36,994 bases of DNA from Oscillospiraceae bacterium (GTDB lineage: Bacteria > Bacillota > Clostridia > Oscillospirales > JAAYXM01): positions 1 through 36,994 of the forward strand of contig JAFSEA010000081.1 in NCBI GenBank assembly GCA_017435965.1, written 5' to 3'. How positions within the stretch are numbered: the stretch's first letter is position 1; every line of letters starts with the position of its first letter. The notes below the pieces were generated by a model. It saw nothing but the letters and a program-made list of their open reading frames with translations. It was not told the DNA's origin and made no database searches. Below are positions 7,594 through 36,994 of this stretch, one piece after another. The translations under genes were made by a program, and so were the position numbers.

Positions 7594-8589
7594 TTATAAA
7601 TCAAATTCCAAATTTAATCTCTCCACCGTGTCGTGGTCGGCTAAGAAAAACGGGTAGTTATGCCTGTTTTTTTCCTGCCCCGTCCTTTCTTCACGTATTG
7701 TGTAGCCAAAATACTTTGTAAAAAGCTTTGACATATATGTTCTGTCACAAAGCCCACAGATATCGGCGATATAGTCGAGGGAATATCTCGAAAAAACAAT
7801 AAAATATTTTGCCATCTGCACACGGAGCTGACGGAGGTACAGGGTAAATGTAGTTCCGCAGACGATTTTAAAATACTTGAAGAAGTCGGAATAGCACATT
7901 GCGGAAACGGAGCAGAGCTTTTCGCTGTCTATCCGTGAGCCGAAATTTTTGTTCATATAAAGAAGCGAATCCATTATGGGAAAGAGCTTCATTTTTATAA
8001 TTTTCTCCGCCTGCGTTTTTTGCTTTTCGGAGAGAGCAAAGGTGGGAAGGTGAAAAAGCTCACAAAGCTTTTTGCGTATGGAAAGAATATTGGGAAGTGT
8101 TTTTGTGTAGTCATACTTTGCAAGCTGAAGGAGAGTGGATTCAAAGACCTTTCTCTCTTCTCCCGAAAGCTCAACGAAAAGCGGCGGTTGAAATTTGAGT
8201 TCATTTGCAAAGGAGTGGAGAAACAAGGCTGTTACAGCATCGGTGCGAAGCTCCTCGGGAGCACTGCGGAAAAAGAAGGCTGTGGCTTCAATGCAAGCGA
8301 GAACAACGTGATCCTCTTTTCGGATTATGAAGTTGTGTCCCACTCCGGGTGGGACTACAACAAAAGAGCCTTCCTTGCAGTAATATACTTTGTCTCCCAC
8401 AAAGTGGATATACTCCCCTTCCACACAATACCACGCCTGCACAAAGTCGTGGCGTTGAAGTTTTAAACCGTTATGTTCACCAAACGGCTTTGCGACAATG
8501 CAGAAAGGGTATTTATATATGTCGAAAACACGGCGTGCAAAGGCAAATTCCATAGGGAAATATTCACTTAACGGTGCAAATTCTTGCAT
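7594..8589 (-). CDS. AraC family transcriptional regulator of locus 1
   Basis: 331 aa. The N-terminal half is a cupin-like sensor domain (EGEYIHFVGDKVYYCKEGSFVVVPPGVGHNF) that normally binds a small sugar or related inducer. The C-terminal ~100 residues hold the two AraC helix-turn-helix units, with LDYIADICGLCDRTYMSKLFTKYFGYTIREE as the second. A 30-residue tail follows the HTH. The ATG has AAGGAGG 8 bases upstream. It is divergently transcribed from the secreted companion gene at 8765, so it very likely controls that gene and the giant lyase downstream in response to a glycan fragment. This control is inferred from position and family behaviour. Confidence 0.87.
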   Translation of the reverse strand: MQEFAPLSEYFPMEFAFARRVFDIYKYPFCIVAKPFGEHNGLKLQRHDFVQAWYCVEGEYIHFVGDKVYYCKEGSFVVVPPGVGHNFIIRKEDHVVLACIEATAFFFRSAPEELRTDAVTALFLHSFANELKFQPPLFVELSGEERKVFESTLLQLAKYDYTKTLPNILSIRKKLCELFHLPTFALSEKQKTQAEKIIKMKLFPIMDSLLYMNKNFGSRIDSEKLCSVSAMCYSDFFKYFKIVCGTTFTLYLRQLRVQMAKYFIVFSRYSLDYIADICGLCDRTYMSKLFTKYFGYTIREERTGQEKNRHNYPFFLADHDTVERLNLEFDL

Positions 8590-8618
8590 ACCCTTTTCCT
8601 CCTTTGCGGTATATATTC

Positions 8619-8647
8619 AGTTTATCATCCGGCACCCTTGAAGTCAA
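8619..8647 (-). promoter_or_regulatory. Sigma-A promoter of the locus 1 AraC gene
   Basis: Minus strand: TTGACT (8642-8647), 17-base spacer, TAAACT (8619-8624), with a TGA extension before the -10 box. Confidence 0.65.
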
Positions 8648-8757
8648 CAGAAAAAAATTAAAAAAACATACGATTTTTCACAAATGGAATATATGTAATG
8701 ATAGAATTAAAATGTATAGTTAAATACTTTTGTAACATTTATAAAATTCAGGGAGGA
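8648..8757 (+). promoter_or_regulatory. Probable AraC-controlled promoter region of locus 1
   Basis: An AT-rich stretch ahead of the companion gene. A -10-like TATAGT lies at 8715-8720 with no recognisable -35, as expected for an activator-dependent promoter. The ribosome-binding site GGGAGGA is at 8751-8757. No clear AraC direct repeat could be picked out by eye. Confidence 0.3.
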
Positions 8758-8764
8758 TACAAAA

Positions 8765-11527
8765 ATGAAAAGATTTTTAAGTATGGTTTTAACACTTGCA
8801 CTTATCTGTACAATGCTGCCGACTGTGTTTGCATCGGAAGGAGAGGCTGCGGAAGCTCCGGCAGAAATAACCCCTCTTAAATACAACTTCGGTTATGAAG
8901 CTTACGGTGCAACAAGCGATATCCCGATGAAAACAAATTTCACGCAGGATACTGCGGCTGTGGGCGATGAGGGATATGTTGCAGATACCGTATCAATTGC
9001 ACGTTATTCTCTTGATAAGAAGCTTGCAACAGTAAATACTTCTCCGTGGTTTTTTGCGGGCATGAAGTATGTCTATGATTCCGCAATAAAGTCCGGAGAG
9101 CTTTGGGTTCAGGCTTATCGGACAAGAACTACGGTAACAACCTATGGCTTTATGATAGCAATTGATGTTCCTGTGGCAGGAGAATATATTCCCACGCTCA
9201 ATTATCAGGCCTTGGAAAAAAGCTACATAAATAATATTCTTCTTGTTCCGGAGGACGATTCACGACTTGTTGAAAAGATAACAAATAAGGGCGGAATTGG
9301 TTTCTGGAGAACAGAAAACGAAAGCTGTGAAGGAACTGATGGGGTTTCTGTGTACCTTCGCGACCTTCGTGATGTTGACCGTGAAAACTATCAGCTTGGA
9401 ACTCTTGATATGCAGGAGACTGTTTTCGATGAAGAAATTGAGACAAAAACATTTGACAGCGTGACTCTCCAAAAGAAAAGATACTATCTTATTTTTGATT
9501 GCGACGGACAGACAGTGGATTCGGAAAGCACTTTAGGTAAGGGAAATAAGATAGAGATATCCCTTCGCTCTTTTGAGCTGAATCTTCCCGTACTCGAAAC
9601 CGTTGATGTGTCATTTGGCAGTAATTCAATTTATGTTAATGAGGCAGCCAAAGCAAAGCTTGCACTCAAATTTGATACCGGAAAAGAATTTACAGACGAG
9701 TATACTGTTGCATACGAAAGTATGAATGATTGTGCTACGGTAGATTCAAAGGGTATTGTTACCGGTGTAAGCGAAGGTACTGCAAAAATCAAGGTTACCG
9801 TAACTCCGAAAAATTATGGAGATCCGATTTCTGTTGAAGCCACAATTCCTGTTGTGAAAAGAAGTGCCGATGAAGCAATAAAGTATAACTTCGGCTACGG
9901 TGCTTATGGTGTATCGGATGTTATTCCAATGGCTACCACAGCGGCAGCCGATACTGCGTCGGTTGGCGGAGAAGGCTATGTTGCAGACACCCTGTCTCTT
10001 GCAAGATTTGATACTGACGGGAAGTGGGCGAATATCGGAACTGCACCGTGGCGTGTTGACGGTATGCACTATGTCAATACTATGCAGTTAAAGGAAAACG
10101 AGCTTTGGATACAGGCGTGGAAAATACGCCTTCCTCTTACAAGCTACGGTTTTATGATGATGATAGATGTGCCGGTAGCGGGAGAGTATATCCCCACTCT
10201 TGAATATCAGGCACTTGCAAACGGTTATATAAATAACATCATCCTCATTCCCGAGGACGATCCTTTTATAAAGGAAAAAGCAGGCACAAGCTCTCCGATC
10301 GGATTCTGGAATACAGCCAAAGATCCTGCAGTTCTTGAAGGTACTGCAGGCGCAACAGCTGTTTTGCGTGATATGGGTACGACAATCAGAGACAAGTATC
10401 AGATAGGAACCGTAGATATGCAGGAGGTAACTCCCGATGATGAGAGCGAATACAAGGAATTTAAGGCCGTAACTTTGGAGAAGAAGAGATACTGCCTCTT
10501 TATTGACTCGGCAGAGACCCAGACCACGGACTCATCGGGAAACTATATAGAGCTTGCTCTTCGTTCCTTTGAGCTTGACCCGGTAACTGTTTCGGAAAAA
10601 GTAGAGAAGGAATTCGACTACACCGAAGAGGAATTTATCGGCGGTGGTGCAACACTTCGTGCCTTTGCGATTTACGGAGCCGGTGGCGAAGATTCGGAAG
10701 AAGATATAATTGAAACAAGAGAAATCACCCTTGGCGAAACAGTTTCCGTATCAGCACCCGTGAGTGTGACAAGAGGCGATAAAACATATAACTTCCTCTA
10801 TTGGGCAAAGGGCGCAACAAATAAAAAGCAGATAGTTTCATACAATGCCTCCTTTACATACAAGGCATATGCAGAAGCAAACAATCTTATCGCAGTATAT
10901 AAAGAAGCAGGTGCAGAAAGCTCGGCAAAGGAATATTACAACGCAAACGGTCAGCTTATGGACGGTGACACACTCCCGAGCCTTCCGGGCTACGGTCAGG
11001 CAACAGGCTGGGCAGATGCAGGAAACGGCGTTTACGTTGCAGAATATGCACCCCTCCAAAAGAATATAAAGATAACCGTAAACGGTGCAGAGGAAAGCTA
11101 CGCATACGGCGACAATGTTGTATGTACTGCAAATGCTCCCGAGGGCAAGGTATTTATGTATTGGACAAAGAACGATGAAATCGTTTCAACAGAGAGCACA
11201 TATACCTTCTCGGCCTGGGAGACCGCAACAGTCACAGCTGTATACGGCGATAGTGCTCCCACCCTGGGAAAGACAATGAGAAAGATTCTCCTCGGCACAC
11301 TTCCTGCAGGAGAAGATACCGCTGTTATGGCAGAGTTTATCGGATTTTCCGATGCAGTTGAAAAGGGAATCATATTCGGCGGCAAGAAAATCCCGATGCT
11401 CACAGATAAGAGCCAGTTTACACTCACAAACGATACCGATGGTACGGTTGAAGTAACAGGCTATGCAATAGTGAGTGACAACGGAACATTAAAAGAGGTT
11501 TCCGACGGAAGCATTTCCGTTGAATAA
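8765..11527 (+). CDS. Secreted modular companion protein, locus 1
   Basis: 920 aa with a signal peptide (MKRFLSMVLTLALICTMLPTVFA), so exported. Two ~235-residue modules of an unrecognised type (called module I here) begin with K-Y-N-F-G-Y and end with LRSFEL, at about residues 38-272 and 372-604; each has the features of a beta-sandwich carbohydrate-binding domain. A BIG2-like Ig domain (CATVDSKGIVTGVSEGTAKIKVTV) separates them. Residues ~615-840 hold InlB/Flg_new-like beta repeats (FMYWTKNDEIVS). The last ~70 residues form a small domain (EKGIIFGGKKIP) shared with the locus 2 companion at 26888. There is no catalytic domain, SLH repeat or sortase signal, so it is probably released or held by a partner. 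The giant lyase with the same modules follows after 126 bases. A glycan-capturing role is inferred. Confidence 0.8.
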   Translation: MKRFLSMVLTLALICTMLPTVFASEGEAAEAPAEITPLKYNFGYEAYGATSDIPMKTNFTQDTAAVGDEGYVADTVSIARYSLDKKLATVNTSPWFFAGMKYVYDSAIKSGELWVQAYRTRTTVTTYGFMIAIDVPVAGEYIPTLNYQALEKSYINNILLVPEDDSRLVEKITNKGGIGFWRTENESCEGTDGVSVYLRDLRDVDRENYQLGTLDMQETVFDEEIETKTFDSVTLQKKRYYLIFDCDGQTVDSESTLGKGNKIEISLRSFELNLPVLETVDVSFGSNSIYVNEAAKAKLALKFDTGKEFTDEYTVAYESMNDCATVDSKGIVTGVSEGTAKIKVTVTPKNYGDPISVEATIPVVKRSADEAIKYNFGYGAYGVSDVIPMATTAAADTASVGGEGYVADTLSLARFDTDGKWANIGTAPWRVDGMHYVNTMQLKENELWIQAWKIRLPLTSYGFMMMIDVPVAGEYIPTLEYQALANGYINNIILIPEDDPFIKEKAGTSSPIGFWNTAKDPAVLEGTAGATAVLRDMGTTIRDKYQIGTVDMQEVTPDDESEYKEFKAVTLEKKRYCLFIDSAETQTTDSSGNYIELALRSFELDPVTVSEKVEKEFDYTEEEFIGGGATLRAFAIYGAGGEDSEEDIIETREITLGETVSVSAPVSVTRGDKTYNFLYWAKGATNKKQIVSYNASFTYKAYAEANNLIAVYKEAGAESSAKEYYNANGQLMDGDTLPSLPGYGQATGWADAGNGVYVAEYAPLQKNIKITVNGAEESYAYGDNVVCTANAPEGKVFMYWTKNDEIVSTESTYTFSAWETATVTAVYGDSAPTLGKTMRKILLGTLPAGEDTAVMAEFIGFSDAVEKGIIFGGKKIPMLTDKSQFTLTNDTDGTVEVTGYAIVSDNGTLKEVSDGSISVE

Positions 11528-11550
11528 TAGAGGAAAAACAAAACCGCTGC

Positions 11551-11572
11551 GGAACGACACACAGGTCGTTCC
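11551..11572. repeat. Intergenic hairpin repeat (GGAACGAC type)
   Basis: Perfect 8-bp inverted repeat GGAACGAC / GTCGTTCC with a 6-base loop. It lies directly before the GTAGGGG composite palindrome, between the companion gene and the giant lyase gene. There is no T-run, so it is not an obvious terminator. Confidence 0.6.
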
Positions 11573-11578
11573 CTACCG

Positions 11579-11628: not shown

Positions 11629-11653
11629 ATTGTCCCTGAAAGGAGAAGCGAAA

Positions 11654-14600
11654 ATGAAAAGAATTTTAAGCTTTGTCTTGTCTCTCTGTATGCTCATATC
11701 CTTTATGCCGCAAATTGCATTTGCAGAAGAGAGCACGGAAAGACAGTCGTATAAATATAATTTCGGCTACGGTGCATTCGGAGCATCAAGCGTTATCCCG
11801 ATGAGCACCACGGCAGCGGCAGACACAGCGGCTGTGGGAGAGGAGGGCTATGTTGCAAACACCCTTTCCCTTGCACGTTTTGCAACGGACAAGACCTTTG
11901 CGACCACAAACTCTGCCCCCTGGCTTGCGGCAGGTATGCACTATGTCCTTGATATGAAGCTCAAGGAAAATGAGCTCTGGGCGCAGGCATACAACATACG
12001 CCTTACCCTTACAAGCTATGGCTTTATGCTTATGATAGATGTGCCGGAAGCGGGAGAATATACCCCCGTTCTTGAATATCAGGCACTTGCAAACAGTTAT
12101 GTAAATAACATCATCCTCATTCCCGAGGACGATTCATTCATAACCTCCAAAACCGCCACAAGACCCGTCGGCTTCTGGAATCTTGACAAAGACCCTGCAG
12201 TTCTTGAAGGTACTGCAGGTGCAACCGCTGTCTTCCGTGATATGGGTGAGGCAACACGTGAAAAATACACTCTCGGCACTCTCGATATGCAGGAAGTAAC
12301 CCCGGATGATAAGAGCGAATACAAGGTATTTAATAATGTAACCTTGGAGAAAAAGAGATACTATCTTATTTTCGACTCGGCAGAAACGCAGACCTCGGCT
12401 TCATCGGACAATAAGATAGAGCTTGCTCTTCGCTCCTTCACGCTTGCAGTACCCGGAACTGTTGAAGTTCCTTCCCTCAAAACAGTTGAAGCTTCTCTTT
12501 CAAGCGATGTAATCGCTCCGGGAAGCAGCGCAACGGTAGCGCTTGCACTTAAATATGAAGACGGCTCGGAATTTTCAGACCCCCACACCGTTGCATATGA
12601 AAGCCTTGATGAAAATGTTGCAACGGTAGATGCAAACGGCGTTGTCACAGGTGTTTCCGATGGCAAAGCAAAGATAAAGATAACCGTAACTCCAACAGTT
12701 TCGGGCTCTCCCGTCACAACAGAGGTGGAAATCACCGTTGAATCGGAAAAAGAGCCTCAAAGCCTTCATTATAACTTTGGTTATGAAAGCTACGGACTGA
12801 ATAGCGACATTCCGATTTCCACAAACTTTGCCGAGGACACAGCGGAGGTTGACGGTGAAGGCTATGTTGCAAACACAATTTCAATCGCACGCTTTGCAAA
12901 GGACAAAAAGCTTGCAACGGTAAATTCTGCTCCATGGTTCTTTGCAGGTATGAAGTATGTGACCACTTCGGCTCTCAAATCGGGAGAGCTGTGGATACAG
13001 GCGTGGGAAACAAGAGCCACGGTGACAACCTTCGGCTTTATGATAGCCGTTGATGTGCCTGTTGCCGGCGAATATATCCCTGCTCTCAATTATCAGGCAC
13101 TTGCCACGGGATATGTAAACAATATCCTTCTCGTTCCCGAGGACGATGCGAGATTTATTGAAAAAACATCCGGAGGAATAGGCTTCTGGAGACTTGACAA
13201 TCAGGTGCTTGAGGGGCAGAGCGGAGTTTCTCTCTATATCCGTGACCTTCGTGATGTTGACCGTGAAAACTATCAGCTGGGAACGGTTGATATGCAGGAA
13301 GTAACCCCCGATGAAACAACAGAACGCAAGGTATTTGACAAGGTAACATTGGAGAAGAAGAGATATTATCTCGTTTTTGACTGTGACGGTCAGAATATAT
13401 CCTCTTCTGCCTCAGGCTCAAACAAGATAGAGCTTTCGATCAATTCCTTTGACCTCTTCCTCCCGGGTGAGGTTGATATCCCCGTGCTCGGAAGTGCAGA
13501 TATAAGCTTTGACAATTCTGAAATTTATATCGGCGAAACTGCGAATGCTTCCCTTAATCTTAAGTTTACAGACGGACAGATTTATACAGAAAAGTATACT
13601 GCGGTATATGAAAGCCTTGATGCGAATGTTGCAACGGTAGATGCATCAACAGGTGTTGTAACGGGCGTTTCCGAAGGTAAGGCAAAGATAAAGGTAACGG
13701 TAACTCCCGAATATGGCGATGCTGTTGTGGGTGAAGGCGAGATAACCATTGCAAAAAAAGTTCCCCTCACCGCAAAAATATATAAATTCGGATATGGTGC
13801 ATACGGTGCAGCCGAGGATATTCCGATAAAAACAAACTTCATACAGGACACAGCGGAGATTGACGGCGAGGGCTATGTTGCAGATACCTTGTCTCTTGCA
13901 CGTTTTTCAAAGGATGATAAGTTTGCGGAGAATAATACATCACCCTGGCTTTATAAAGGTATGAAGTATGTTCTCGATTCAAAGCTCTATGCGGACAGTC
14001 TCTGGATTCAGTCCTACAGAACACGTGTTACCCTTACAAGCCACGGTTCAATAATGATGATTGACGTGCCGCAGAAGGGAACATATACTCCCGTGCTTGA
14101 ATATCAGGCACTTAAAAACGGATATGTAAACGACATTCTCCTTATCCCTGCAGACGATGCACGGTTTACCGGCAAGAGCTTCGGCTTCTGGAGACTTGAC
14201 AATCAGGTGCTTGAGGGTACAGGAGATGTGTCGATACTTCTTTCAAAGATAACCGATGCAGACCGTGAGAAATACCGTCTCGGAACGGTCAATATGCAGG
14301 AAGCAAACCCCGATACCACAAGCGAATACAAGGTGTTCCCCGAAACTACTCTTGAAAAGAAGAAGTATTATCTTATCATTGATACGGTTGGTCAGAAGAT
14401 AGATTCCGAAAAGGAGCTTGCTGCCGGAAACAAGATTGAGCTTTCTCTTCGCTCTTTCCGTCTTGAAGTTCCGGGAACTGTTGACGTTCCGGTGCTCTCT
14501 TCTGTTGAGTTGAGCTTCGGAAAGCAGTCACTTCCCATATCAAGAACAACAAAGGCAGTTCTTTCGATGAAGTATGATGACGGCGATACCTTTGTTGAGG

Positions 14601-17600
14601 ACTGCAACCTTTCCTTTGAGAGCCTCAATGACCATGCAACCGTTGATGATGAAGGCAATATCACGGCGGTAAACGAGGGTGTTGCAAAGATAAAGGTAAC
14701 CGTAACTCCGGAATATGGTGAAGCCGTATCTGCAGAAGCAGAGCTTCCCATAACATCAAAGCCTGTCCTTGATTCCTTCAGATTCACGGAAGCTGAAATA
14801 AATCTCCTTCGTGATGATGCAGTTCGCGGAAAGTATGAAACAAGCATAGTTGCGGTTATGTCCGACGGTGAGAAAGAAAGCGCAGAACCCTTTGAGGTTT
14901 CATATGAAAGCTCCGATGAAAGCATTGCAACGGTAGACGAAAACGGAGTTATCACAGCGGTTTCCGAGGGAAAAGCAACCGTAACGGTTTCGGCAATGTC
15001 CCCCGAGGAGAGACTCTGCACGGGCACAATTTCCGTTATTGTACACGCGGAGATGCCCGGAATATATGTTGATTTCTCAAAGACTGTCTGCAAGCCCGAC
15101 AAATCACTTCCCGACATAACTCCGGGATATAAAATTCTTATAGACGAGAGCCAGTCCGGCTTCAGTCTCGGCACAGCGGTAGATACGGGACTCGGCATTT
15201 TCTTTGCAAACACATATTATTCAAAGTGTTGGCCCGAAGCAAAGGTCAAAAATACAACCTTTGCATTCTCCGTAAATGCAGATATCGAAGGCTGGTATAA
15301 GACAGAGATTATAGGTGCCCTCCACAAGCAGGGCGGTACATACTCCATATACACAGAAGATGATTATGTCGGTGACAGAAGCTTCTGGAACGGCGTTACG
15401 GGAGATGAAAAGTGGAGCACCGCCACAAGCAAGGAAAGAGCTCTCAACACGGTTTATTTAAAGCGCGGCGAAAACAAGATATATATGCGTATGCGAAAGA
15501 CCGGAACGGGCAACCCCTATGTAACTATAAATTCTCTCAACTTTATCCCCGTGGAAAGCGATGTCACACTCGAGAGAATTGATACAACTCTCCCCGATGA
15601 GCTTGCAGTAGGCGAGACCTTCGATGGCGTGGCAGTTGCTTATATGAGCGACGGCACGGTACGTCACTTCAACGATGCTTCAAATGACGGAAGTGAAGAA
15701 ACCGTCCGCGTTATGGGTGCAAACACATCAAACAGCGGCATTTCCGCAGACGGTTTTGCTTATGTAATCGGCGATACCGGCAAGAAGGAATATGTCCTCA
15801 AGGGTGAGACGGCAGGAACAACAACCGTTACGGTTTATGCTACCCTTGGCGATAATAACCGTGCAGAAACAACAAAGGATATCGTTGTAACAAACGACCT
15901 TCTCACCTCAACAAGCCTCACAATGGCGGCAGAGGAGATTTTTGCGGGAGATATGACATATCTCACGGCACATCCTGTAATTGGCGGAAAGAGAATTTCC
16001 TATTCATCCGCAACCACAAATGAGATAACCTCCTCCGATGAGAGCGTTGTTAAGGTTGAAGGAAATCTTCTCCGTGCCGTAAGCGAAGGAAGTGCAACTC
16101 TCACCGTAAAGTCAACCTTTAACGGAAAGAGCGTGGAAAATTCCGAATTTACCGTTGAAGTTCTCCCCGAGGGAATGACGGATATTGACATCACCTCCGG
16201 CGGAAGCTACGTTATCCGCCTTACAGACAATGAGGAAGAGACAATTCCCATGTTTGTGAGTGCAATCTCAAATCTCGGCAATGCCCTTGATATGGGAAAT
16301 GCCACAGTTTCTGTCCGTGCACTCACTCCCGAAATTGCGGATATCATAGACGGAGAAAGAATCCTCCCCGTAGCAGAGGGCGAGGCAAAGTTCCTTGTGA
16401 GAATAGAGCTTGACGGAAGAATAAGAGAAAAGGAATGTTCTCTCAGAGTCGCTTTCGGAAAGTCAAAAGCAACCATTATGACTGCCGAAAAGGCGGCGGC
16501 TGCCCGTGAAAATATGTCAAAGTACGACTGGGCAAAGAAAGAAGCCGAAGGCTATAAGCGCAACGCAGATGCCGTTGTTGACAATGTTGATGTTCTCTAT
16601 GATATGATTCATTCCGAGGGCATTCCCCGTGCGGCAAACGTGGGCTATGGTTCTGATCCTGCAATATACAACTGCCGCTACTGCAATGTTGACCTTCGCG
16701 CAGAATACAGCACCTATCCCTGGGTCCACAATGCCATCATACGTCCGTGGAAGATTCAGTGCCCGGATTGTAAGCGAGTATTCCCGTCAAACGACTTCGG
16801 CTCATTCTACAAGCTCGGTCTTAATGAATACGGCGAATTCTCCAGAGACCGTGCACTTGAGGAGCACGCAAAGCTCTTTGGTGATCCCAATGCCGAGGTG
16901 GGAAGTGATGCCTATTACGGCTATGGTAAGGGATATCTTGAGAATACCCTTTATAAGGATATTGCAGATGAGCCTCGCTTAAACGGCGGTCAGGGACTTC
17001 GTCCGGGCGAGACTGTTGCAACCTGGGGTGTTGACGACGGTTTCGGATATGTCCCGAAGATGCCCGACGGCACACCTTATTCCTACAACAACGGAAAAGA
17101 TATTGAACGCCATAGCTACATTGCGGAATACCTCCACTACGGAGTATGGCGAAACGGTGCAGTGGGCGATGCCATTGAAGACTCGGCTTACGCTTATTTC
17201 TACACAGGCGATAAGCGCTACGGAAGAGTTGCCGCAATACTTCTTGACCGCCTTGCCGACTTCTATCCGGATTATGACATTATGCCCTACTTCACTATGG
17301 TAGGAAATTCCCACGGCGGAGCAGGTCAGGGCAAGATTATCGGCTCTATCTGGGAAACTGGAATTATAACAAAGTATATCACAGCCTATGATATGGTCTA
17401 TGATATGTATGACGACCCGTATGTTCTGAACTACATATCAAACAAGAATAATGTGTGGAAGATGCGTCATTCAAAGGAAAACGCATCACAGATACGCACC
17501 AATATAGAAGACGGAATTCTCCGTGCCGCATTTGAGGGAATTAAAACAGATGCAGTCTCCGGTAACTTCGGTATGGAGCAGAAGGCAAATGCTTATGCCG

Positions 17601-21346: not shown

Positions 21347-21353
21347 GATTATA

Positions 21354-22053: not shown

Positions 22054-22082
22054 TTGAAAAAGGAAAAAGAATGTAATATAAT
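22054..22082 (+). promoter_or_regulatory. Sigma-A promoter of the protease gene
   Basis: TTGAAA (22054-22059), 17-base spacer, perfect TATAAT (22077-22082). The in-frame TTG at 22054 is therefore the -35 box and not a start codon. Confidence 0.75.
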
Positions 22083-22119
22083 AAACAAAAGATACGATGA
22101 ATTTTTAGGGGTGACAGGT

Positions 22120-24792: not shown

Positions 24793-24827
24793 ATAAAACC
24801 TCCGAAAATGAAACATAATGACATCTC

Positions 24828-26887: not shown

Positions 26888-29422
26888 ATGAGAAACAATT
26901 TTAGGAAAAGAATCGCATCACTTATCGTTGCAATATGTATGATTGCAGCATTTGTGCCGTCAGTTTCGGCATCAGAGAAGGAAACGGAGGAGCGCGAATC
27001 CGTTGTTGTACAGTTCGCCAATGTCGGAAGCTCCACGGAAATAGCACAGATAAATCCGGATGCAGCTACAGTCGGACTTGATGTTATAAAGGGGACAAAC
27101 TATGCTACCATAGCCTCAGAAAGTTCTTCTTATACAACAAATCAGATCAAAAACTATGCATTGAATGTCACAAGTGAAGGCACAAAATACTTTATGTTGC
27201 AGGCGGCAACAATCGGAACTGTTTGGACAAAGGCGTATAAGAGCCAGACTGTGGCAAACACAGACGGAGTATGGACCATTGAAGTGGATATGGGAACAGG
27301 AGCTTCCGCAGGCTGGTATAACCTTGACATTCAGGGTGCAAAGTGGTATGTCGGCGGTGTGTATGATGTGTATGTTGACGGAGAAAGAGTCGGCTCATAT
27401 GACTGCAGAAACGCAGGGGGACAGATATTTACGGAACAGGATATTGGAAATGTCTATATTTCCCCCAATTCGGAAGGAAAAACAAAGATAGCCTTTGTTT
27501 TAAAGGAACAGCGGTATAATTCAGCCGAAAGCACAACTCTGAAATCCGACTATGCCCGTGTGCTCATACATAAGCTCACCCTTTCCCCCATTGATGCACC
27601 TGTTGCCACAGCACAGACGGTCAGCGTTGAGCTTTCCTGGGACACTATGTTTTATGCAGACAAATCAACTCCGTCTGCAGATTGGATGACCTATGGTTTT
27701 GAGCTTGCTTTGGACAAAGGCAAAATGACAAGCGATATAAGCAGATATACTGCACAGAGCGAATCAACCCTTACCGGCAAGAAATTCACACAGATTCAGA
27801 CAGGACCTACGGTGTGGCCATATGCAGAAAATGCTATGTTCACAATCAAGAAGCAGGTCAATGTCGAAGGTTGGTATCGTGTGGACGTGCAGGGCATTCT
27901 CAACGTAAGTGCATCGGATTATGCAATTTACGTAAACGGAGAATATGCCGGAGATTATAATTTTGACAACACGGAAACAACTTCAAATAAATTGGGCGAG
28001 AAAAAACAGCTGAACACAGTTTATCTTAATGCCGGAGAAAATGAAATTTCCTTCAGATTAAGAGCGAAGAATTATTCAAGTTCATTGTTTATCCCCTACC
28101 TTGTGGAGCTTGTTCCGGCAAGCAAGCCTGTGATAGACACGGTTTCCACAACCGCTTCTGAAAAAACTCTTGAAAACGGTGCAGAAGAGTCCTTTACGGC
28201 ACAGGTCAGAATGACTGACGGCACATACAGAAGCTTTGGATATAACAATGACGGTTCTGTTCCCACAACAGACGATGTTGTGATTGTAACATCTTCCAAC
28301 GAGGATGTTATTGAGGTTACGGAATGTATAAATGCCAAGACCGTTGCATCATCCGACCTCACATCAACGGTTGACCCCACCACGGTAAGCTACACCATCA
28401 AAGCAGTCGGTTCGGGTACTGCCGATATCACGGTTTCTGCCATTGTAAACGGAGATACAAAGTGTGCAGAAGCTGTTACAATCACCGTTCCCGGAGCAGA
28501 AGAAATAACAGATACAACGGTAAACTTCAAAGCAAGTGCATATGAAGGCGGAAGCGTTTCAAATGCAAATGTTCAGGAAGTCACAATGGGAACAGACGTC
28601 ACGGTTTCGGCAACTGCAAACGAGGGATATACCTTTGCATACTGGAAAAACAGTGCAGGAGTTGTTCTCTCAACAAAGGCGGAAGAGACCTTTAAGGTAA
28701 ACACAAACACCGCAGTCATCGCAGTTTTTGATAAGGCTACAGCCGAGGGCGAAAACATCCCGGTATATTTCTACAACGGAAACGGAATTCCTCTCGGAAA
28801 TACAAGCGTTGCAAAGGATACAACCTTTGGTGATGCAAAAACTGCGGCAGCTATCGGAACTCCGTCACTTACGGGCTTTGCCTTTGACAAGTGGAGCATT
28901 GACGATAATGCTCTCATAACAGCTCTCACCCGTGCAGTTGCACTTTATAAGGATGATGAAACAAAGAGCTACACCGTTAAAAACGGAGATACAACGGTTG
29001 CAAGCGGTCTCAAATACGGCGAGAGCGTAACCGTAAACGGAAGTGATAATTTCACAGCATGGAAGCTTGGGGAGAAGGTCATAAGCTATGATAAGAGCTT
29101 TACCTTTGATGTGTATGGAAACATCACTCTTACCGAAGTAACAGAGACAATGACAAAAGCACCCGTTCTCGTTCTTGACAAGGTTGACGGCAATTACTTC
29201 CTCACATATGATGAAGGAGACTATGAGCTTATCGAGGCAGGTATTCTCTTCGGAAGCGAAGGTGTTACCATCGGAAGTTTTGACGGCTATAAGTCAACGG
29301 CGAAAAAAGGAACAGGTCAGTTTACTGCACTTCCTCACGAGGGAGCAACAGCTGCAACTGTTGCACGGGGCTATATGATTTATAAGGACGGAAGCACATA
29401 CAAGGTGCTTTATGCAGACTGA
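26888..29422 (+). CDS. Secreted modular companion protein, locus 2
   Basis: 844 aa with a signal peptide (residues 1-27, ending SVSA). Two module II domains (~37-236 and 245-410) contain the pattern GWY..DIQG...YDVYVDGERVGSY and GWYRVDVQG...YAIYVNGEYAGDY followed by LNTVYLNAGENEISFRL. These look like beta-sandwich carbohydrate-binding modules. A BIG2-like domain (~415-535), an InlB/Flg_new-like repeat (YTFAYWKNSAGVVLS), further beta repeats and a ~85-residue C-terminal domain (LIEAGILFGSEGV) follow. The C-terminal part matches the locus 1 companion in layout. There is no catalytic domain, SLH repeat or sortase signal. It begins 36 bases after the creatininase gene and ends 44 before the giant lyase. 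A role in binding the lyase's glycan or products is inferred. Confidence 0.8.
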   Translation: MRNNFRKRIASLIVAICMIAAFVPSVSASEKETEERESVVVQFANVGSSTEIAQINPDAATVGLDVIKGTNYATIASESSSYTTNQIKNYALNVTSEGTKYFMLQAATIGTVWTKAYKSQTVANTDGVWTIEVDMGTGASAGWYNLDIQGAKWYVGGVYDVYVDGERVGSYDCRNAGGQIFTEQDIGNVYISPNSEGKTKIAFVLKEQRYNSAESTTLKSDYARVLIHKLTLSPIDAPVATAQTVSVELSWDTMFYADKSTPSADWMTYGFELALDKGKMTSDISRYTAQSESTLTGKKFTQIQTGPTVWPYAENAMFTIKKQVNVEGWYRVDVQGILNVSASDYAIYVNGEYAGDYNFDNTETTSNKLGEKKQLNTVYLNAGENEISFRLRAKNYSSSLFIPYLVELVPASKPVIDTVSTTASEKTLENGAEESFTAQVRMTDGTYRSFGYNNDGSVPTTDDVVIVTSSNEDVIEVTECINAKTVASSDLTSTVDPTTVSYTIKAVGSGTADITVSAIVNGDTKCAEAVTITVPGAEEITDTTVNFKASAYEGGSVSNANVQEVTMGTDVTVSATANEGYTFAYWKNSAGVVLSTKAEETFKVNTNTAVIAVFDKATAEGENIPVYFYNGNGIPLGNTSVAKDTTFGDAKTAAAIGTPSLTGFAFDKWSIDDNALITALTRAVALYKDDETKSYTVKNGDTTVASGLKYGESVTVNGSDNFTAWKLGEKVISYDKSFTFDVYGNITLTEVTETMTKAPVLVLDKVDGNYFLTYDEGDYELIEAGILFGSEGVTIGSFDGYKSTAKKGTGQFTALPHEGATAATVARGYMIYKDGSTYKVLYAD

Positions 29423-29466: not shown

Positions 29467-32400
29467 ATGAAAAGATTTATATCGCTGATGCTGACAGCGG
29501 CAATGCTTTTTGCGCTTCTGCCTGTTGTTCCTTCCGCTTCTGCGGAAGTCGGTGATGAAATAGTTGTTGAGTTTTCAAGCGAGACAACTACTCTCGGTGC
29601 AGCCAACGCGGACCCCGAGGACTGGACAAGGCACGATGGCTATGAAGTAATTCAGGAGGAAAGCAACTACACAAGTGCAGGTATGGCAAGCGTTGCGGGA
29701 AGTGTTGAAACTCCCGAAGGCACAAAAAACCTCTTTAAGCTTATAACAAGCGGAGGAACAGCCTGGCCTGCAGGCGGTGCAACCCAGAGAAGACTCTGGT
29801 TTACCTTCAAGTTCAAGGTGGCAGAGGAAGGCTACTATGAGGTAAAGTTTCAGGGCGGAAAATATAATCAGGGAGCAGAATATTTCCTCTATGTAGATGA
29901 CCTTTTTGCCGGTGAATACAGTTGCTTCGATGCAAGTGCATCGGCTGTGAAGCTCGGTGAGGAAAAGAAGCTCAATACCCTTTATCTCACCCCCGACAGC
30001 GACGGATATGTAAAGGCGACATTCCGAACATCCGTCAAAGCACCGGGAAACACAAACTTCTTAATTCCCTATAAGCTCACCCTAACAAAGGTGGAGGAAG
30101 CACCCTCCTTTGTATCTTTTGAGGAAACAATTCCCGAAAGCGTTGAGCAGGGCGAAGAGGTAAAAGTCACCGTCTCCGCAAAAATGAGTGACGGCTCAAC
30201 CTATTCATACCCCACCTACAAGATAGACGGAACAAGCGACAGCCGAGATTCCCTCTCCGTTTCCGTCTCCGGCGATTCAATATTAAAGGATGCCGTTTTA
30301 AAGGACGGAGTATATTCGGCAACCCTCAAAGCAGGAAGTGTGGGAAATACAACGGTTTCAATGCAGGCAAAAATAGGTGGTGTGCAGACTCCCGTTACCA
30401 CAAAGACTGTTGAAATTCTTGATGCAAGCATTCCCCGTGAGGTCTCGGCACTTCTTATCCGTGATAATTTTAAGTTTACCGACAGTAACTTCAGCTATGA
30501 CACGGTGGAGACAAAGGGCTTTACGATAGTCAAAGACAAGAGCACCATAAGAGCACAGAGCCGATGCCAGGACGGACTCAAGCTTTCCATAAACGGCGTT
30601 ATGACAAACTTTGTCGAAATGAATCTCGGCAATAAAAGTGCCGCAAACGTATGGCCAAAGGGAAGCAACGCCACAAAGGGAAGTGTTTTCACGGTAGCGG
30701 TCAATGTTCCCGTTGCGGGAAAATACAGCCTTAAACTTCAGGCGATACAGAGAAATACATCACTGAATTACTATGTGTATGTAAATGACAAATACGCAGG
30801 TGACTATGAGTCCTTCTATGAAAATGCAACCTCGGCTGGACAGTTCCGGCTTTCCGAGGAAGAAACTCTCAACACCTTCTATCTCCCGAAAGGAGAAAAT
30901 GAGATTTCCTTCCGCTTAAAGCAAGCACCCACAAACAGCAACGGCGTGCAGATAATTCCTTATTCAATCCGCTTTGTCCCCGTAGAAGACCAGTCAACGT
31001 CCCTTGAACCGGAGAGTATTTCCGCGGAAATCCCCGAGAACTTAGCTCTCGGTCAGAGTATTGATGTTGATGCAAAAGTCATTATGAACGATGGCTCACT
31101 CCGTCTTTTCGGACTTTCGGGTGACGGAACGAATGATGACAATAACAAGGTTGATATTGAGATTACAAACCCCATTGGCGTTGAGGTTATAAAGGAAGTT
31201 TCCTCCTCCTATGCAGACGGGAAAACAACCTTTAACCTCAAAGCAAATGCCCTTGGAAGTGCAAAGGTAAAGATAACTGCTCTCGTTGATGGAAAACCTG
31301 TTTCCACGGCGGAAAAGGTAATTGATGTTGTTGATATCAAGGCAGTAAATGTGTCCTTTGGAAGAAATCCCCTCCCCGAAGGCTACAGCTCCGCGGCAAA
31401 TCTTGAGATTATCCTTTCAAATGATGATATATATTCGGGAGATTATGATGTGACCTTTGAATCCTCCGATACATCTGTCATAGAGATAGACCCCGAAACC
31501 GGCGTTGCAACGGCTGTTGCAAATAATGGAAGCGCGGAGATTTCTGCCTGTGTAAGCCTTTCGGGGATGGAAAAGACAGGAACTGTAATTCTTTCTGCAA
31601 CAGATGCAATAGCACAGGAAGAGACGGTTGTATACTTCACAGAAAAGACAACCTCAACAAATACGAGTGAGACCTGGGTAAACCCATATCTCTGGACAAC
31701 GGAAGGCTATACCATAATCCGTGAAGAGACATATGAAGACGACGTAAGCGGTGCAGGAAGATACTACGGTGCAAAGCTTCAGACTCCGGAAGGTCCTCTC
31801 AGCATTATGCAGATAAGATCACGTGGCGGAAAGACCTGGCCCTCAACCAACGACAAAACTGTTATGTTCACAATAACCGTGCCGATGAAGGCAAAGGGTT
31901 ATTACAACATAAAATTTCAGGGCGGAAAGGGAAATGCCTTCTCTGATTACTACATATACGCAGACGGAAAGTATGCAGGTGAATACAGCTTCTATGACCC
32001 CGACTTTAGCGTTGCAGTCCTTGGCGAAGAGAAGCAGCTCAACACCCTCTATCTTGATCCGGGCGAAAAGGAATATGTAAAGGTTTCCTTCCGTGTTGCA
32101 AAAACACGCTATTCCTCAACCTATATGCTCCCATATAAGCTGACCTTTACTCCCGTTTTGGAAAAGCCTGTGATTTCGGAGCTTGAAAGCGAAATTCAGG
32201 ATGAATTTGTGCCCGGAGAGGATATGGTGATTGAATCTCGTGTCAAAATGAGCGACGGCTCATATCACTATTTCGGGAAATACGACGGTGACGGAAACAA
32301 TACGGATGTCGGCTTTAATGTTGTATCCGAAGATGATAACACAATCGGTGTCACATCCCCCGTTCTTTCGGCAACCGATTCAAGCCTTTTTACATTCACG

Positions 32401-35400
32401 ATAAAGCCGAAAGCGGCAAAGTCGGAGGCTGTAAGCATCACACAGACGGCAAGCTTTGACGGTGTTGAAAAATCTCTTTCAAAGAGCGTCACCGTTTCGG
32501 ATGATCCTCTTGAGAGAGTGGAGGTAAGTCTTGAAGCGGCGGAGGTTCTTGAAGGTGACAGCACAAGGCTTATTGTGAAAAACATCCTCCAAAGCGGAAG
32601 AGAGCTTGGAAATACTTCCAATGCGGTCACAACCTTTACTGCAAGCGAGGAAACTCTTGATATTGCAGACGTAAGCGGCGATATTCTCCGCACCTACAAG
32701 GAAGGTATGGCAAAAATCAACGTTAAAACTGTCTTTGCAGGTCAGGAAAAGTCTGTTGATTTCATCGTAAATGTTCTTCCCGAGGGTATGACAGAGGTAA
32801 GTGCAACGGCAGGGGGATATGAAAACATCCGCTTTACCGGAAACGGAGACGATTCCGTTCCATTCTATGTGCAGGCAATATCAAACCTCGGTGCGGAGCT
32901 TGATACCTCAGATGCAATTATTGAAGCTACGGCACATAATCCCGAAATTGCAGACCTTAATGAAGCGCGTGATACCATTATCCCGAAAGCACCGGGAAAG
33001 GCAAAGTTCACAGTCCGTGTAACTCTTAACGGAAGAACGAGAGAGACCGAGGCGACCTTTACGGTATCGCCTGCAAAGCGTGGCTTTACATACATAACGG
33101 AAGAAAAGCGTGAAAATGCAAAGAACAACATTCAGAAATACAGCTGGGCAAAGGATGAAGCAAAGAAGAAAATAGCAACTGCAGATAAGTATGTTGACAA
33201 TGTGGATGCTCTTTACGGACTTATAACCTCTCAGGGACTTATGAGAAGTATGGCTGTCGGTGAAGAATATGATGCAAACATTCTTTACTGCCGCTATTGC
33301 GGTGAGAACATCGGTGCAGAAAACGGCACCTTCCCCTGGGTGATAAATCCCATAACACGCCCCTGGAAGGTACAATGCCCGGATTGTAAGAGAGTTTTCC
33401 CTACAAACGATTTTGAAAGCTTCTATAAGCTCGGTCTCAATGAATACGGCGAATTTGACAGACTCCGTGCTCTTGAGGCTCACAGAGAAATGCTTCTTGC
33501 AATGAATATTGATTCCGTAACGGAATCCCTTACAAGCGTGGAAGCACCGGGTAAGGAAAACACAACGGAATGGTATACCTACTACGGCTATGGCGTGAAG
33601 GAAGGTTATCTCTATAATTCCCTTTACCGTGAGGTTGGCGATGAAGGATGCCCGGTACAGCTTTCGGAAAGCGAAACGAAAGAACGCTGGGGCGTTGATG
33701 ACGGTCTCGGCTACTATTCGGGAAAGACAAAGGCATCCAATGGTAACAATGACCGCCATACCTATATAGGCTGCTTTATCGCATCCGGTCTTTGGCGCTC
33801 GGACGGTGCATACGGAAAGGCGATTTCCGAGGCAATACAGTCGTGTGCCTATGCATATGTTTATACGGGCGAGAAGAAATATGGTGTGACTGCGGCGGTT
33901 CTTCTTGACAGACTTGCCGATTTCTACCCCGATTATGACCTCAAGGCATATGACCTTATCGCATATAATGCCCACGGCGGAAGCGGTGTGGGCGGACTTC
34001 TCGGTAATATTGCAGAAGCACAGATTGCACCAATATTCCCCGAAGCATATGATATGGTCTATGATATATTTGACGACCCGACTGTTGTAAACTATATTGC
34101 AAAAAAGGGCGAGAACATAAAGTTCCGCCACGCAAAGGAAACGCCGAATCAGATAAGACATAATATTGAGAACGGACTCCTTCGGGGAATCCTCCGCAAC
34201 ATCACAAACGGAAGAGTGGCAGGTAACTTCGGACTTGCTCAGGAAGCAAATGCCCTCTGTGCGGTGGTTCTCGACTCACAGCCGGAGACAACGGAGTGGT
34301 TAGATTTTCTCTATGCTTCAAATGTCGGCTCAACCACAACAAATGTCACGGGCGGGGGCATTGACGATTATCTCATAAGCAGAATTGACCGTGACGGTCA
34401 GGGCGATGAAGCATCTACCTATAACCAGATGTGGATTGACGGAATGCAGCCCGTTGCAGATGTCCTTGACGGTTATGACGGATATGAGGGCATGAGCCTT
34501 TACGAGCATCCGAAAATGAAGCGTATGTACTATTCGGGAATTGCAATGATGCTGGGTGAATTCTCCCCCACCATCGGAGACACTTCACGAACAGCGCAGA
34601 AAGGACATTGGACGAGCAAGGCAAGAGTTTTAAATGCTTTCCATAAAATAGGCGATCCCATATTCGCTCAGGCGGCTTATGAATTTAACGGAAGAAGCGT
34701 TGAAGGCTTCAACACAGGCATCTGGACGGAAAATCCCGAACAGATTCAGGATGATATTCTTGATGCAATAAAGGAAAACGGTCCGCTTACATTCAGAAGC
34801 GATATGCTTGCAGGCTTTGGTGTCGGAATGCTTCGAAGCGGCGGTGACTACACCGACAGCACAGCGGCAACGGCACTTGACACAAGAAACGCAACCTGGA
34901 TGTATTTCGGAACAAACGGAAACGCATACTCCTCCCACGCCCATAAGGACACGCTGAATATCGGTCTTATCGCCCTCGGTCTTGAGCTTATGCCGGATCA
35001 CGGTTATCCCACAAAGACAGGTCAGGATCCCGAGCGTGTGCAATGGACAAATCAGACCCTTTCCCATAACACGGTAATGGTCAATGAAAAGTCACAGGAG
35101 GCACAGGATTCGAGAGGCGACGCAATCCACTTTGACGAAACCGATATGGTCAGGGTTATGGATGTATCCGAGCCGAATGTATATAACGAGGTTTCCGAAT
35201 ACCGCCGTTCCGTCCTCAACATAAAGATTGACGATGAGAATATGTATATGGTGGACTTCTTCAGAGTCCTCGGCGGCGATAACCATATTTACAGTATCCA
35301 CGTTGTGGCTGACGGTATTTCCGAAACCGTCGGAATGGGAGAAGTGAAACCCCAGACCGACGAGAACGGAAACTATATCGGCTCATATGCAGGTGCTGAT

Positions 35401-36994
35401 GTTCCCTTTGGCGCAGACCCCAATACCAACTCCACAAACTCATCGGTTTTAAAATATCCGAGAGGGTATACATGGCTTGACAACGTTGACAGATACGGCG
35501 ATACAGAGGATAATTTCACCGTTGACTTTAAGATTCGTGACTGGAAAAAATACTTAAAAGACGGAAGTGACCTGTATCTCCGGATGACGGTACTTGACGG
35601 CGAAAACAGAGAAAACGGAGTGGAAACCTCGGTAGCCATTGCAAACGGCTATCCACCTGCAAAGAAGGAAAATCTTGTGATTGACTATCTCAAATACTTC
35701 CTTCTCGAGCACAAGGGCGAAAATCTCGACGCGGTGTTTACAACGGTCTTTGAGCCCTACAAGAAGGAGCGAAGCCTTGAAAAGTCAGAGCCTCTAAAGC
35801 TTGAGATTATAGACGGAAGCGAAAATGCAGATGATGCCGCCCGTGGAATAAAGGTAACTCACACAAGCGGAAGGATTGACTATATCTTCTGGGCAACAAA
35901 CAACACCGTTACATACAAGGCAGAAGATGGTGAGAGAACACTTTACTTCCGTGGCTTTACGGGAGTATACACACTCGGGGAGAAAAACGGAAGCTTGGAG
36001 AATACCCATAAGTATATCCTTGACGGTGATATCATCGGTGAAGCCTTTGAGACTGAAGACGTTGTTTTTGCAGTTACGGGTAAGGTACATTCTTTCACAA
36101 AAACCGTTTCATATGAAAATGAAATGACGGTCGAGACTGATTCGGAGATTTCGGAAGAAACTCTCGCACAGCTTCCCGGAAAATACATTTTCGTTGACAA
36201 CAGCGGCGAAGAATATGCACGAAACGGTGCATATCGAATTGAAAGTGCCGCGATGGACGGAAATAAGCTCACTCTCTCCGTGGGCGAGGTTTCCTTTATA
36301 AGAAAGTATGTGGATTCAAAAAATCCGGAGCTTGGATATGTATTCAACATAAAGGAAGGGCAGGATGTACGCATTCCCCTTTCATACAGCGAGGATTTCT
36401 CACCTGTCTTCGACGAGATAGACGAGCTTTCCGCAAGTGCAGGAAGCGGAGTTTCCTTCACTGTAAAGGCAGAAAGCGAGCTTGGTGAGAAGATAACATA
36501 TTCCGAGAGCGTCCTTCCCCGTGGTGCAAGCCTTAACGGGGAAACAGGTGCAATAACCTGGAAGCCGCAAAGCTCACAGGTGGGAAGAAACCACTTTGCA
36601 ATAACTGCAACGGACGAATCGGGAAGACAGTCAACCCTCCACTTCTTCGTAAACGTCTACGGTTCAACCTCCGGCGGCGGTGGCGGCGGCACAACAGCTC
36701 CCTCTGATAAACCCTCAACCGATGTAGGGGAGGATATCATCCTCCCGCCCGCAGAGCCAGATGTCCGCTTCCGTGACCTCGGAAACCACGCCTGGGCAGA
36801 AGATGCAATAAACGCCCTTGCCGATAAGGGAATAATCAAGGGCACAAGCGAAACCACATATTCACCGGCAAATAATATAACAAGAGCAGACTTTGCAATT
36901 CTCCTTGTGAGAGCGTTTGAGAAGGAAAGCGACAACACCGAAAACTTCGCAGACGTAAGTGAGTCCGATTACTTCGCAAAAGAACTTGCAATCG
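29467..36994 (+). CDS. Giant SLH-anchored heparinase II/III-like polysaccharide lyase, locus 2 (3' truncated)
   Basis: Open from ATG 29467 (AAAGGAG 6 bases upstream) to the window end, about 2,509 codons, with no stop found in my translation. Order: signal peptide (~1-26); module II copies at ~29-211, 335-508 and 717-896, separated by Ig-like domains; further Ig domains to ~1200; lyase region (~1205-2295); He_PIG domain with GASLNGETGAITWKP; Gly-rich linker; SLH1 and part of SLH2 before the end. The lyase carries the Cys4 knuckle (C1275, C1278, C1304, C1307), SHAHKDTLN (H1824, H1826) and LSHNTVMVN (H1867), all aligned with the locus 1 enzyme at roughly half identical residues. It should cut a uronic-acid polysaccharide at the cell surface. 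Unlike the locus 1 enzyme it has no module I. A translated palindrome lies in the linker. Confidence 0.85.
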   Translation, partial: MKRFISLMLTAAMLFALLPVVPSASAEVGDEIVVEFSSETTTLGAANADPEDWTRHDGYEVIQEESNYTSAGMASVAGSVETPEGTKNLFKLITSGGTAWPAGGATQRRLWFTFKFKVAEEGYYEVKFQGGKYNQGAEYFLYVDDLFAGEYSCFDASASAVKLGEEKKLNTLYLTPDSDGYVKATFRTSVKAPGNTNFLIPYKLTLTKVEEAPSFVSFEETIPESVEQGEEVKVTVSAKMSDGSTYSYPTYKIDGTSDSRDSLSVSVSGDSILKDAVLKDGVYSATLKAGSVGNTTVSMQAKIGGVQTPVTTKTVEILDASIPREVSALLIRDNFKFTDSNFSYDTVETKGFTIVKDKSTIRAQSRCQDGLKLSINGVMTNFVEMNLGNKSAANVWPKGSNATKGSVFTVAVNVPVAGKYSLKLQAIQRNTSLNYYVYVNDKYAGDYESFYENATSAGQFRLSEEETLNTFYLPKGENEISFRLKQAPTNSNGVQIIPYSIRFVPVEDQSTSLEPESISAEIPENLALGQSIDVDAKVIMNDGSLRLFGLSGDGTNDDNNKVDIEITNPIGVEVIKEVSSSYADGKTTFNLKANALGSAKVKITALVDGKPVSTAEKVIDVVDIKAVNVSFGRNPLPEGYSSAANLEIILSNDDIYSGDYDVTFESSDTSVIEIDPETGVATAVANNGSAEISACVSLSGMEKTGTVILSATDAIAQEETVVYFTEKTTSTNTSETWVNPYLWTTEGYTIIREETYEDDVSGAGRYYGAKLQTPEGPLSIMQIRSRGGKTWPSTNDKTVMFTITVPMKAKGYYNIKFQGGKGNAFSDYYIYADGKYAGEYSFYDPDFSVAVLGEEKQLNTLYLDPGEKEYVKVSFRVAKTRYSSTYMLPYKLTFTPVLEKPVISELESEIQDEFVPGEDMVIESRVKMSDGSYHYFGKYDGDGNNTDVGFNVVSEDDNTIGVTSPVLSATDSSLFTFTIKPKAAKSEAVSITQTASFDGVEKSLSKSVTVSDDPLERVEVSLEAAEVLEGDSTRLIVKNILQSGRELGNTSNAVTTFTASEETLDIADVSGDILRTYKEGMAKINVKTVFAGQEKSVDFIVNVLPEGMTEVSATAGGYENIRFTGNGDDSVPFYVQAISNLGAELDTSDAIIEATAHNPEIADLNEARDTIIPKAPGKAKFTVRVTLNGRTRETEATFTVSPAKRGFTYITEEKRENAKNNIQKYSWAKDEAKKKIATADKYVDNVDALYGLITSQGLMRSMAVGEEYDANILYCRYCGENIGAENGTFPWVINPITRPWKVQCPDCKRVFPTNDFESFYKLGLNEYGEFDRLRALEAHREMLLAMNIDSVTESLTSVEAPGKENTTEWYTYYGYGVKEGYLYNSLYREVGDEGCPVQLSESETKERWGVDDGLGYYSGKTKASNGNNDRHTYIGCFIASGLWRSDGAYGKAISEAIQSCAYAYVYTGEKKYGVTAAVLLDRLADFYPDYDLKAYDLIAYNAHGGSGVGGLLGNIAEAQIAPIFPEAYDMVYDIFDDPTVVNYIAKKGENIKFRHAKETPNQIRHNIENGLLRGILRNITNGRVAGNFGLAQEANALCAVVLDSQPETTEWLDFLYASNVGSTTTNVTGGGIDDYLISRIDRDGQGDEASTYNQMWIDGMQPVADVLDGYDGYEGMSLYEHPKMKRMYYSGIAMMLGEFSPTIGDTSRTAQKGHWTSKARVLNAFHKIGDPIFAQAAYEFNGRSVEGFNTGIWTENPEQIQDDILDAIKENGPLTFRSDMLAGFGVGMLRSGGDYTDSTAATALDTRNATWMYFGTNGNAYSSHAHKDTLNIGLIALGLELMPDHGYPTKTGQDPERVQWTNQTLSHNTVMVNEKSQEAQDSRGDAIHFDETDMVRVMDVSEPNVYNEVSEYRRSVLNIKIDDENMYMVDFFRVLGGDNHIYSIHVVADGISETVGMGEVKPQTDENGNYIGSYAGADVPFGADPNTNSTNSSVLKYPRGYTWLDNVDRYGDTEDNFTVDFKIRDWKKYLKDGSDLYLRMTVLDGENRENGVETSVAIANGYPPAKKENLVIDYLKYFLLEHKGENLDAVFTTVFEPYKKERSLEKSEPLKLEIIDGSENADDAARGIKVTHTSGRIDYIFWATNNTVTYKAEDGERTLYFRGFTGVYTLGEKNGSLENTHKYILDGDIIGEAFETEDVVFAVTGKVHSFTKTVSYENEMTVETDSEISEETLAQLPGKYIFVDNSGEEYARNGAYRIESAAMDGNKLTLSVGEVSFIRKYVDSKNPELGYVFNIKEGQDVRIPLSYSEDFSPVFDEIDELSASAGSGVSFTVKAESELGEKITYSESVLPRGASLNGETGAITWKPQSSQVGRNHFAITATDESGRQSTLHFFVNVYGSTSGGGGGGTTAPSDKPSTDVGEDIILPPAEPDVRFRDLGNHAWAEDAINALADKGIIKGTSETTYSPANNITRADFAILLVRAFEKESDNTENFADVSESDYFAKELAI
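36723..36746. repeat. REP-like palindrome translated in the linker before SLH1
   Basis: Identical in sequence to the copy at 20161-20184 and at the same place relative to SLH1. It is read in frame as VGEDIILP. Confidence 0.8.

Follow-up and report, generated by a model that had tools for sequence, protein, structure and literature searches.

It is still largely an open question by what means Gram-positive bacteria of the gut, which have no SusC/SusD, capture and cleave complex acidic polysaccharides. Among the closest described systems are the Gram-positive polysaccharide utilization loci (gpPULs) of Roseburia and Eubacterium rectale, the definition of which includes a transport system and the whole pan-genome of which is reported to contain one polysaccharide lyase (PMC5320581), as compared to 59 in the genome considered here. 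Equally, at the level of individual domains, MiCBMx and CBM84 have been described as raising xanthan affinity (PMC10049358). In this work, a stretch of 36,994 nucleotides from an Oscillospiraceae bacterium (assembly GCA_017435965.1, contig JAFSEA010000081.1; hereafter the window) has been analysed. It makes up the entire contig C77 of a genome of 2.65 Mb in 119 contigs, with a completeness of 88%. The window harbours two loci, each with a divergent AraC gene, an exported unanchored protein, here called the companion, and a giant lyase anchored by SLH repeats.

These loci probably represent one kind of glycan-foraging unit, present twice here and multiplied to about 60 copies in one ruminant-gut genus of the Clostridia type, with companion and lyase forming matched pairs for capture and cleavage. 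The genomic system as such is real and strongly replicated. A profile search of the genome retrieved 59 Hepar_II_III_C matches, nearly all within open frames of 2,000-3,300 amino acids (aa), and the profile of one C-terminal domain common to the companions finds 56 genes. Chance does not account for this arrangement, which is repeated throughout the genome and seen again in relatives. The gene plan, its recurrence, the module matching, the predicted folds, the motifs and the anchor signals considered below derive from sequence or prediction. Inspection of open reading frames and Pfam matches in the window upheld the reading frames, coordinates and AraC/companion/giant plan that a preliminary description of this DNA had claimed for both loci; the genes it named in locus 2 stand, with two enzyme genes (24920-25957 and 25985-26851) between AraC2 and Comp2 having been overlooked. 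The features are as follows, with CBM denoting carbohydrate-binding module.

7594-8589, minus strand: AraC1, regulator with a cupin-like sensor and HTH_18, divergent from Comp1 (Pfam HTH_18 2.5e-9, 37.7 bits, cut-off 33.6; AraC_binding 9.6e-8, over cut-off)
8765-11527, plus strand: Comp1, exported unanchored companion, 920 aa
8915-9589, plus strand: Comp1 module 1, predicted CBM-like sandwich (top match Giant1 module 2, 359 bits)
9917-10579, plus strand: Comp1 module 2, predicted CBM-like sandwich (top match Giant1 module 1, 352 bits; modelled, matches CBM folds)
11147-11521, plus strand: C-terminal companion domain of Comp1, predicted Fn3/Ig-like sandwich (pLDDT about 90 or more)
11654-20749, plus strand: Giant1, giant lyase with SLH anchor, 3,031 aa when counted from the ATG
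11789-15556, plus strand: four CBM-like modules of Giant1 (residues 46-267, 383-604, 721-940 and 1155-1301) with Big_2 Ig-like spacers
16430-19789, plus strand: catalytic region of Giant1, toroid and Hepar_II_III_C sandwich (PF07940 1.7e-10), with a CxxC..CxxC motif
20204-20749, plus strand: SLH repeats of Giant1, surface anchor (PF00395, three stretches)
23872-24816, minus strand: AraC2, AraC-family regulator of locus 2 (HTH_18 3.5e-17, 62.9 bits, cut-off 33.6)
24920-25957, plus strand: glucuronoyl-esterase-like alpha/beta hydrolase of locus 2, cytoplasmic, without signal peptide (PF22244 2.8e-45)
25985-26851, plus strand: creatininase-family amidohydrolase of locus 2, cytoplasmic (PF02633 9.4e-39)
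26888-29422, plus strand: Comp2, exported unanchored companion, 844 aa, with two CBM-like modules, an InlB-like repeat and the C-terminal domain
27080-28117, plus strand: CBM-like modules 1 and 2 of Comp2 (residues 65-235 and 248-410; top matches in lyases of other loci)
29045-29419, plus strand: C-terminal companion domain of Comp2 (profile 5.6e-41)
29467-36993, plus strand: Giant2, giant lyase, 2,509 aa visible, truncated by the contig end once past its first SLH repeat
29569-32157, plus strand: CBM-like modules of Giant2 (residues 35-210, 332-507 and 724-897)
33055-36372, plus strand: catalytic domain of Giant2 (PF07940 5.9e-11, over cut-off), modelled with pLDDT 89.1 and pTM 0.88, closest to PL17/PL40 lyases
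36766-36993, plus strand: first SLH repeat of Giant2, cut by the contig end

Comp1 thus runs from a signal peptide through two CBM-like modules split by Big_2 and an InlB-like repeat to the conserved C-terminal domain. For Giant1, an alternative TTG start at 11630 gives a longer frame of 3,039 aa; the ATG at 11654 is the likelier start because AAGGAG precedes and a signal peptide follows it. The toroid-plus-sandwich fold of Giant1 is predicted by homology from the modelled Giant2.

The neighbourhoods of the lyases have been read as 80 genome stretches, with gene calls made by a simple ORF picker. Altogether, the lyases occupy 453,786 bases, or 17.1% of the genome, and the 45 that are complete at both ends have a median of 2,628 aa. 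Among the 58 proteins longer than 1,200 aa in the retrieved stretches, the catalytic region is present in all and SLH in 55, the remaining three being cut by contig ends. Many contigs end inside lyases and, as the assembly seems to break in these repeats, the true count may exceed 59. The window itself starts with the SLH tail of another lyase (2-253), the first 60 bases of which recur on contig C84. Near-identical SLH ends are, though, not a general feature, as intact lyases show a median DNA identity of 70% and none reaches 95%. A short lyase of 945 aa on contig C104 (L010:3586-6423) is similar to tandem lyases of about 1,060 aa in the genome SIG704.

The companions follow the lyases closely. 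Of the 56 C-terminal domains, 30 are located no more than 500 bp and 43 no more than 5 kb from a lyase gene, and the earlier expectation of companions near lyase genes, which would have failed had they been found mostly elsewhere, is thereby borne out. Seen from the lyases away from contig edges, a companion is found directly upstream on the same strand for 30 of 55, directly downstream for 4 and within about two genes for 44. Thirteen companions are located more than 5 kb from a lyase, two of them by contig-cut lyase starts, two at contig ends and one by a different SLH protein; lyase-distant companions occur on contigs C21, C52, C30, C87, C28, C73 and C57 and some adjoin AraC genes. An N-terminal hydrophobic core is present in all 32 complete companions, in which an LPxTG motif, a lipobox, a C-terminal membrane segment, SLH and a catalytic region were all not found. 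Being devoid of every anchor signal looked for, the companions might be diffusible solubilisers or scouts that disperse or present polymer away from the cell without any role at the surface. This is quite improbable, as all 56 keep the conserved C-terminal domain, usually preceded by an InlB-like repeat, which a simple solubiliser would not need.

Companions and lyases are further connected by one module family of about 264 copies, with 2-6 modules per lyase and up to 3 per companion. The division into two discrete types, module I and module II, that had been drawn in the preliminary description was abandoned, since iterative profiles started from either seed gather nearly identical sets of 254-268 copies, and the two are divergent members of one family. 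Within this family, partners tend to resemble each other. The N-terminal part of the companion scores top against the lyase next to it in 25 of 36 pairs and among the top three in 29, and none of 5,000 reshufflings within the genome reaches the observed sum. Equally, in three related genomes (SIG480, RGIG3186 from goat rectum and RGIG2118 from goat colon) the own lyase is top in 21 of 38 pairs (0 of 5,000 shuffles). At the level of single modules, the strongest match beyond the companion itself falls in the paired lyase for 41 of 61 companion modules, as compared to 1.3% expected. Locus 1 exemplifies this, with the two Comp1 modules scoring 359 and 352 bits to Giant1 and 52 bits or less to other lyases; the suggestion of an own matched module for each pair applies to this locus and fails for locus 2.

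The shared module matches no Pfam family, and its predicted structure resembles carbohydrate-binding modules. In a model of Comp1 residues 365-920 (pLDDT 77.7, with parts of low confidence), the module is closest to the xanthan-binding MiXBM (7ehg; Z 11.2, root mean square deviation (rmsd) 2.9 over 121 residues), followed by CBM84 of a Paenibacillus xanthan lyase (6f2p; Z 10.2), CBM6 of an agarase (2cdp; Z 8.8) and CBM35 (Z about 8), at an identity of about 14% to the closest folds. The modules are therefore modelled as CBM6/35/84-like beta-sandwiches that would bind glycans. Since SLH proteins make surface layers and each lyase carries two to six modules with Ig-like spacers, the sandwiches might alternatively be protein-protein modules, the companions building or decorating an S-layer and pairing with the lyase by like-with-like contacts; having no anchor of their own, companions would need something to attach to. 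With CBMs, and xanthan-binding ones on top, as the closest folds and glycan-catabolic genes adjoining, we consider such a structural role very unlikely.

The model of the Giant2 catalytic domain is closest to the PL17 alginate lyase Alg17c (Z 36.8, rmsd 3.6, 639 residues) and the PL40 ulvan lyase Uly1040 (Z 34.5), with heparinases II/III well below (Z 22-27); identity to PL17/PL40 in structural alignments is 15-19%. Among solved structures, a sequence search started from just the catalytic domain of Giant1 returned nothing useful and a profile was needed, which matched PL17/PL40 chains at 1.4e-9 to 1.3e-7 over part of the domain. Invariant in all 59 paralogues are Y2034 (Tyr of EAxxYN), H2201 (first His of HxH) and the pair H2244-N2245 (HN), which correspond to PL17 catalytic residues by motif and not by superposition. 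A CxxC..CxxC motif, which looks like a zinc-binding insert, is invariant in the catalytic region of all 59 as well. On the other hand, the position aligned to the His of NSHGG varies, with 22 of the paralogues carrying D, 19 carrying H and 12 carrying R, and this variation may reflect different uronic acids. The lyases are predicted to cut uronic-acid polysaccharides. The label heparinase II/III-like is justified by the Hepar_II_III_C match over cut-off and the toroid-plus-sandwich fold, yet it is a poor guide to the substrate; with PL17/PL40 as the closest fold and a genome that yields no more than a single weak match to sulfatases and two to GH88, degradation of heparin or other glycosaminoglycans as the default reading was rejected.

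The gene neighbourhood is consistent with a role in polysaccharide use, as had been proposed. Neighbours of the lyases include genes for the glycoside hydrolase families GH20, GH29, GH39, GH78 and GH127, GH109-like oxidoreductases, PL22, DUF4838 and solute-binding proteins (SBPs), and an AraC-type gene, of which the genome has 83, is located within six genes of 43 of the 59 lyases. At least five SBP genes adjoin lyases, several without permeases (contigs C33, C12 and C21), which makes a shared permease serving several binding proteins likely.

The source group has been found in the guts of goats and other ruminants, and the expansion is seen in one genus. Lyase first-look candidates number 72, 58, 21 and 3 in its other species and 2-11 in sister genera, whereas no match is found in the greater part of the order. 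For the five species of the genus, the companion profile gives 58 (the 56 genes of the source genome), 62, 45, 20 and 2 matches; one sister genus has 4, and two sister genera with 1-8 lyases have none; strong matches are nearly absent elsewhere in the order in the profile search. Thus, companion and lyase counts rise together within the genus, and in four genomes companions stand directly beside lyases. Among 398 sampled genomes of the phylum, first-look lyase candidates number at most 11 in any other genome, and the frames are mostly of 600-1,400 aa; the next largest set is found in genome G405, where Hepar_II_III_C candidates number up to 11 and have frames of 750-1,440 aa. In SIG704 (L142, SVTV01000001.1), four lyases of about 1,060 aa stand in tandem with neither SLH nor companion, and such compact lyases are possibly the ancestral form.

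A coherent process can be sketched from these components, in which we infer the class of substrate, the binding of glycans, the attachment to the wall in vivo, the docking of the companion and induction. SLH repeats would hold the lyase on the cell wall, where its CBM array would catch a uronic-acid polysaccharide to be cut by the catalytic domain through beta-elimination. The companion may coat or cross-link the same polysaccharide and bring the polymer to the cell via its C-terminal domain, which would contact either the lyase or some other component of the wall. After import, oligosaccharides would be finished by enzymes of the locus, here the glucuronoyl-esterase-like and creatininase-like proteins, and a breakdown product would activate the AraC regulator. 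Each unit is proposed to be tuned to a different polymer, because of which the modules of companion and lyase would stay matched in most loci. A farther-reaching version, in which lyase and companion dock via the C-terminal domain as a functional counterpart of SusC/SusD and about 60 units, each for a different uronic-acid polysaccharide, make the organism an acidic-polymer specialist, is tentative and rather doubtful; targets would then include, for instance, the varied capsules and exopolysaccharides that other bacteria of the gut produce.

Several observations weigh against matched capture-and-cleavage pairs. No companion stands within two genes of 11 of the 55 lyases, and about eight companions stand alone with no lyase nearby; these may pair with a distant lyase or act on their own. 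In locus 2, both Comp2 modules match lyases on other contigs better than Giant2. The Fn3-like matches of the companion C-terminal domain in the structure search are weak (Z about 7), so that a docking or anchoring role is a guess. Across pairs, relatedness of the companion C-terminal domain correlates only weakly with that of the catalytic domain (r 0.09, with 31 of 2,000 permutations as high), a value that also led to rejection of whole-locus duplication as the sole cause of matching. Matching that is strong in the modules and weak in the rest of the genes could equally have arisen by local recombination, that is gene conversion or tandem duplication, without functional pairing and with companions as leftover or decoy carriers of modules; adjacent repeated modules are good conversion substrates and some companions match several lyases. 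We regard this as unlikely, since neutral leftovers would decay, whereas companions are intact, exported, equipped with a conserved C-terminal domain, placed directly beside lyases in four genomes and more numerous where lyases are. Transport also fits the paired capture-and-cleavage reading poorly. The genome has 10 SBP_bac_1 matches and only 7 matches to binding-protein-dependent (BPD) permeases, and no transporter was found among the Pfam-scanned genes of the window loci, locus 2 being cut by the contig end. The paired surface unit of the preliminary description is consequently well supported as a genomic pattern by recurrence and matching, while its module types, its heparinase substrate and the companion as a replacement of SusC/SusD find no support.

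Beyond the two loci, an HtrA/trypsin-like protease with a membrane segment is encoded between them (22054-23793). Tandem HepT-like and MntA-like nucleotidyltransferase genes, a pair of the toxin-antitoxin type, are located at 3246-3870 on the minus strand, and a second such pair is present on contig C104 (10083-10707, L067). Rfam and tRNA scans gave no hits.

For a small genome to devote 17% of its bases to just one family of enzymes is strikingly lopsided. The genus offers up to about 60 natural pairs per genome of an enzyme with a putative glycan-binding partner, each with its own modules, so that partner choice, substrate specificity and inducible control can be tested pair by pair, and a large stock of unassigned PL17/PL40-like lyases and CBM-like modules has been flagged. 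A description of companion-lyase pairing was not found in the open-access literature. In common with gpPULs, the system groups accessory glycan enzymes with a degrading enzyme and an AraC-type regulator, counts several tens of loci in a genome and lacks SusC/SusD; the available part of PMC5320581 describes no companion paired with an enzyme by matched binding modules. The window loci contain a predicted degrading enzyme and a regulator, which sustains that part of the suggested Gram-positive counterpart of polysaccharide utilization loci; they are not classed as gpPULs because a transporter is absent from the loci, although they would work like one. With the loci of Bacteroidetes they have in common, as a likeness in working only, a repeated and multiplied two-gene capture unit with a non-catalytic glycan-binding partner; SusC and SusD had no Pfam match among the scanned window proteins, and an SLH-anchored lyase instead of an outer-membrane transporter and AraC regulators are found here. 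The lyases resemble PL17 alginate lyases and the PL40 enzyme Uly1040 in the toroid-plus-sandwich fold and the HxH..HN core motifs, and differ in the extra CxxC..CxxC, the giant SLH/CBM architecture and the D/H/R near the presumed first catalytic His. Unlike MiXBM, CBM84, CBM6 and CBM35, the modules occur in arrays, at about 14% identity. Finally, as in cellulosomes and the SLH scaffolding of Paenibacillus curdlanolyticus S1 (PMC6823336), non-catalytic glycan binders would work with surface enzymes; cohesin and dockerin had no Pfam match in Comp1, Comp2, Giant1 and Giant2, and here it is the enzyme that carries SLH, whereas the companion is without it.

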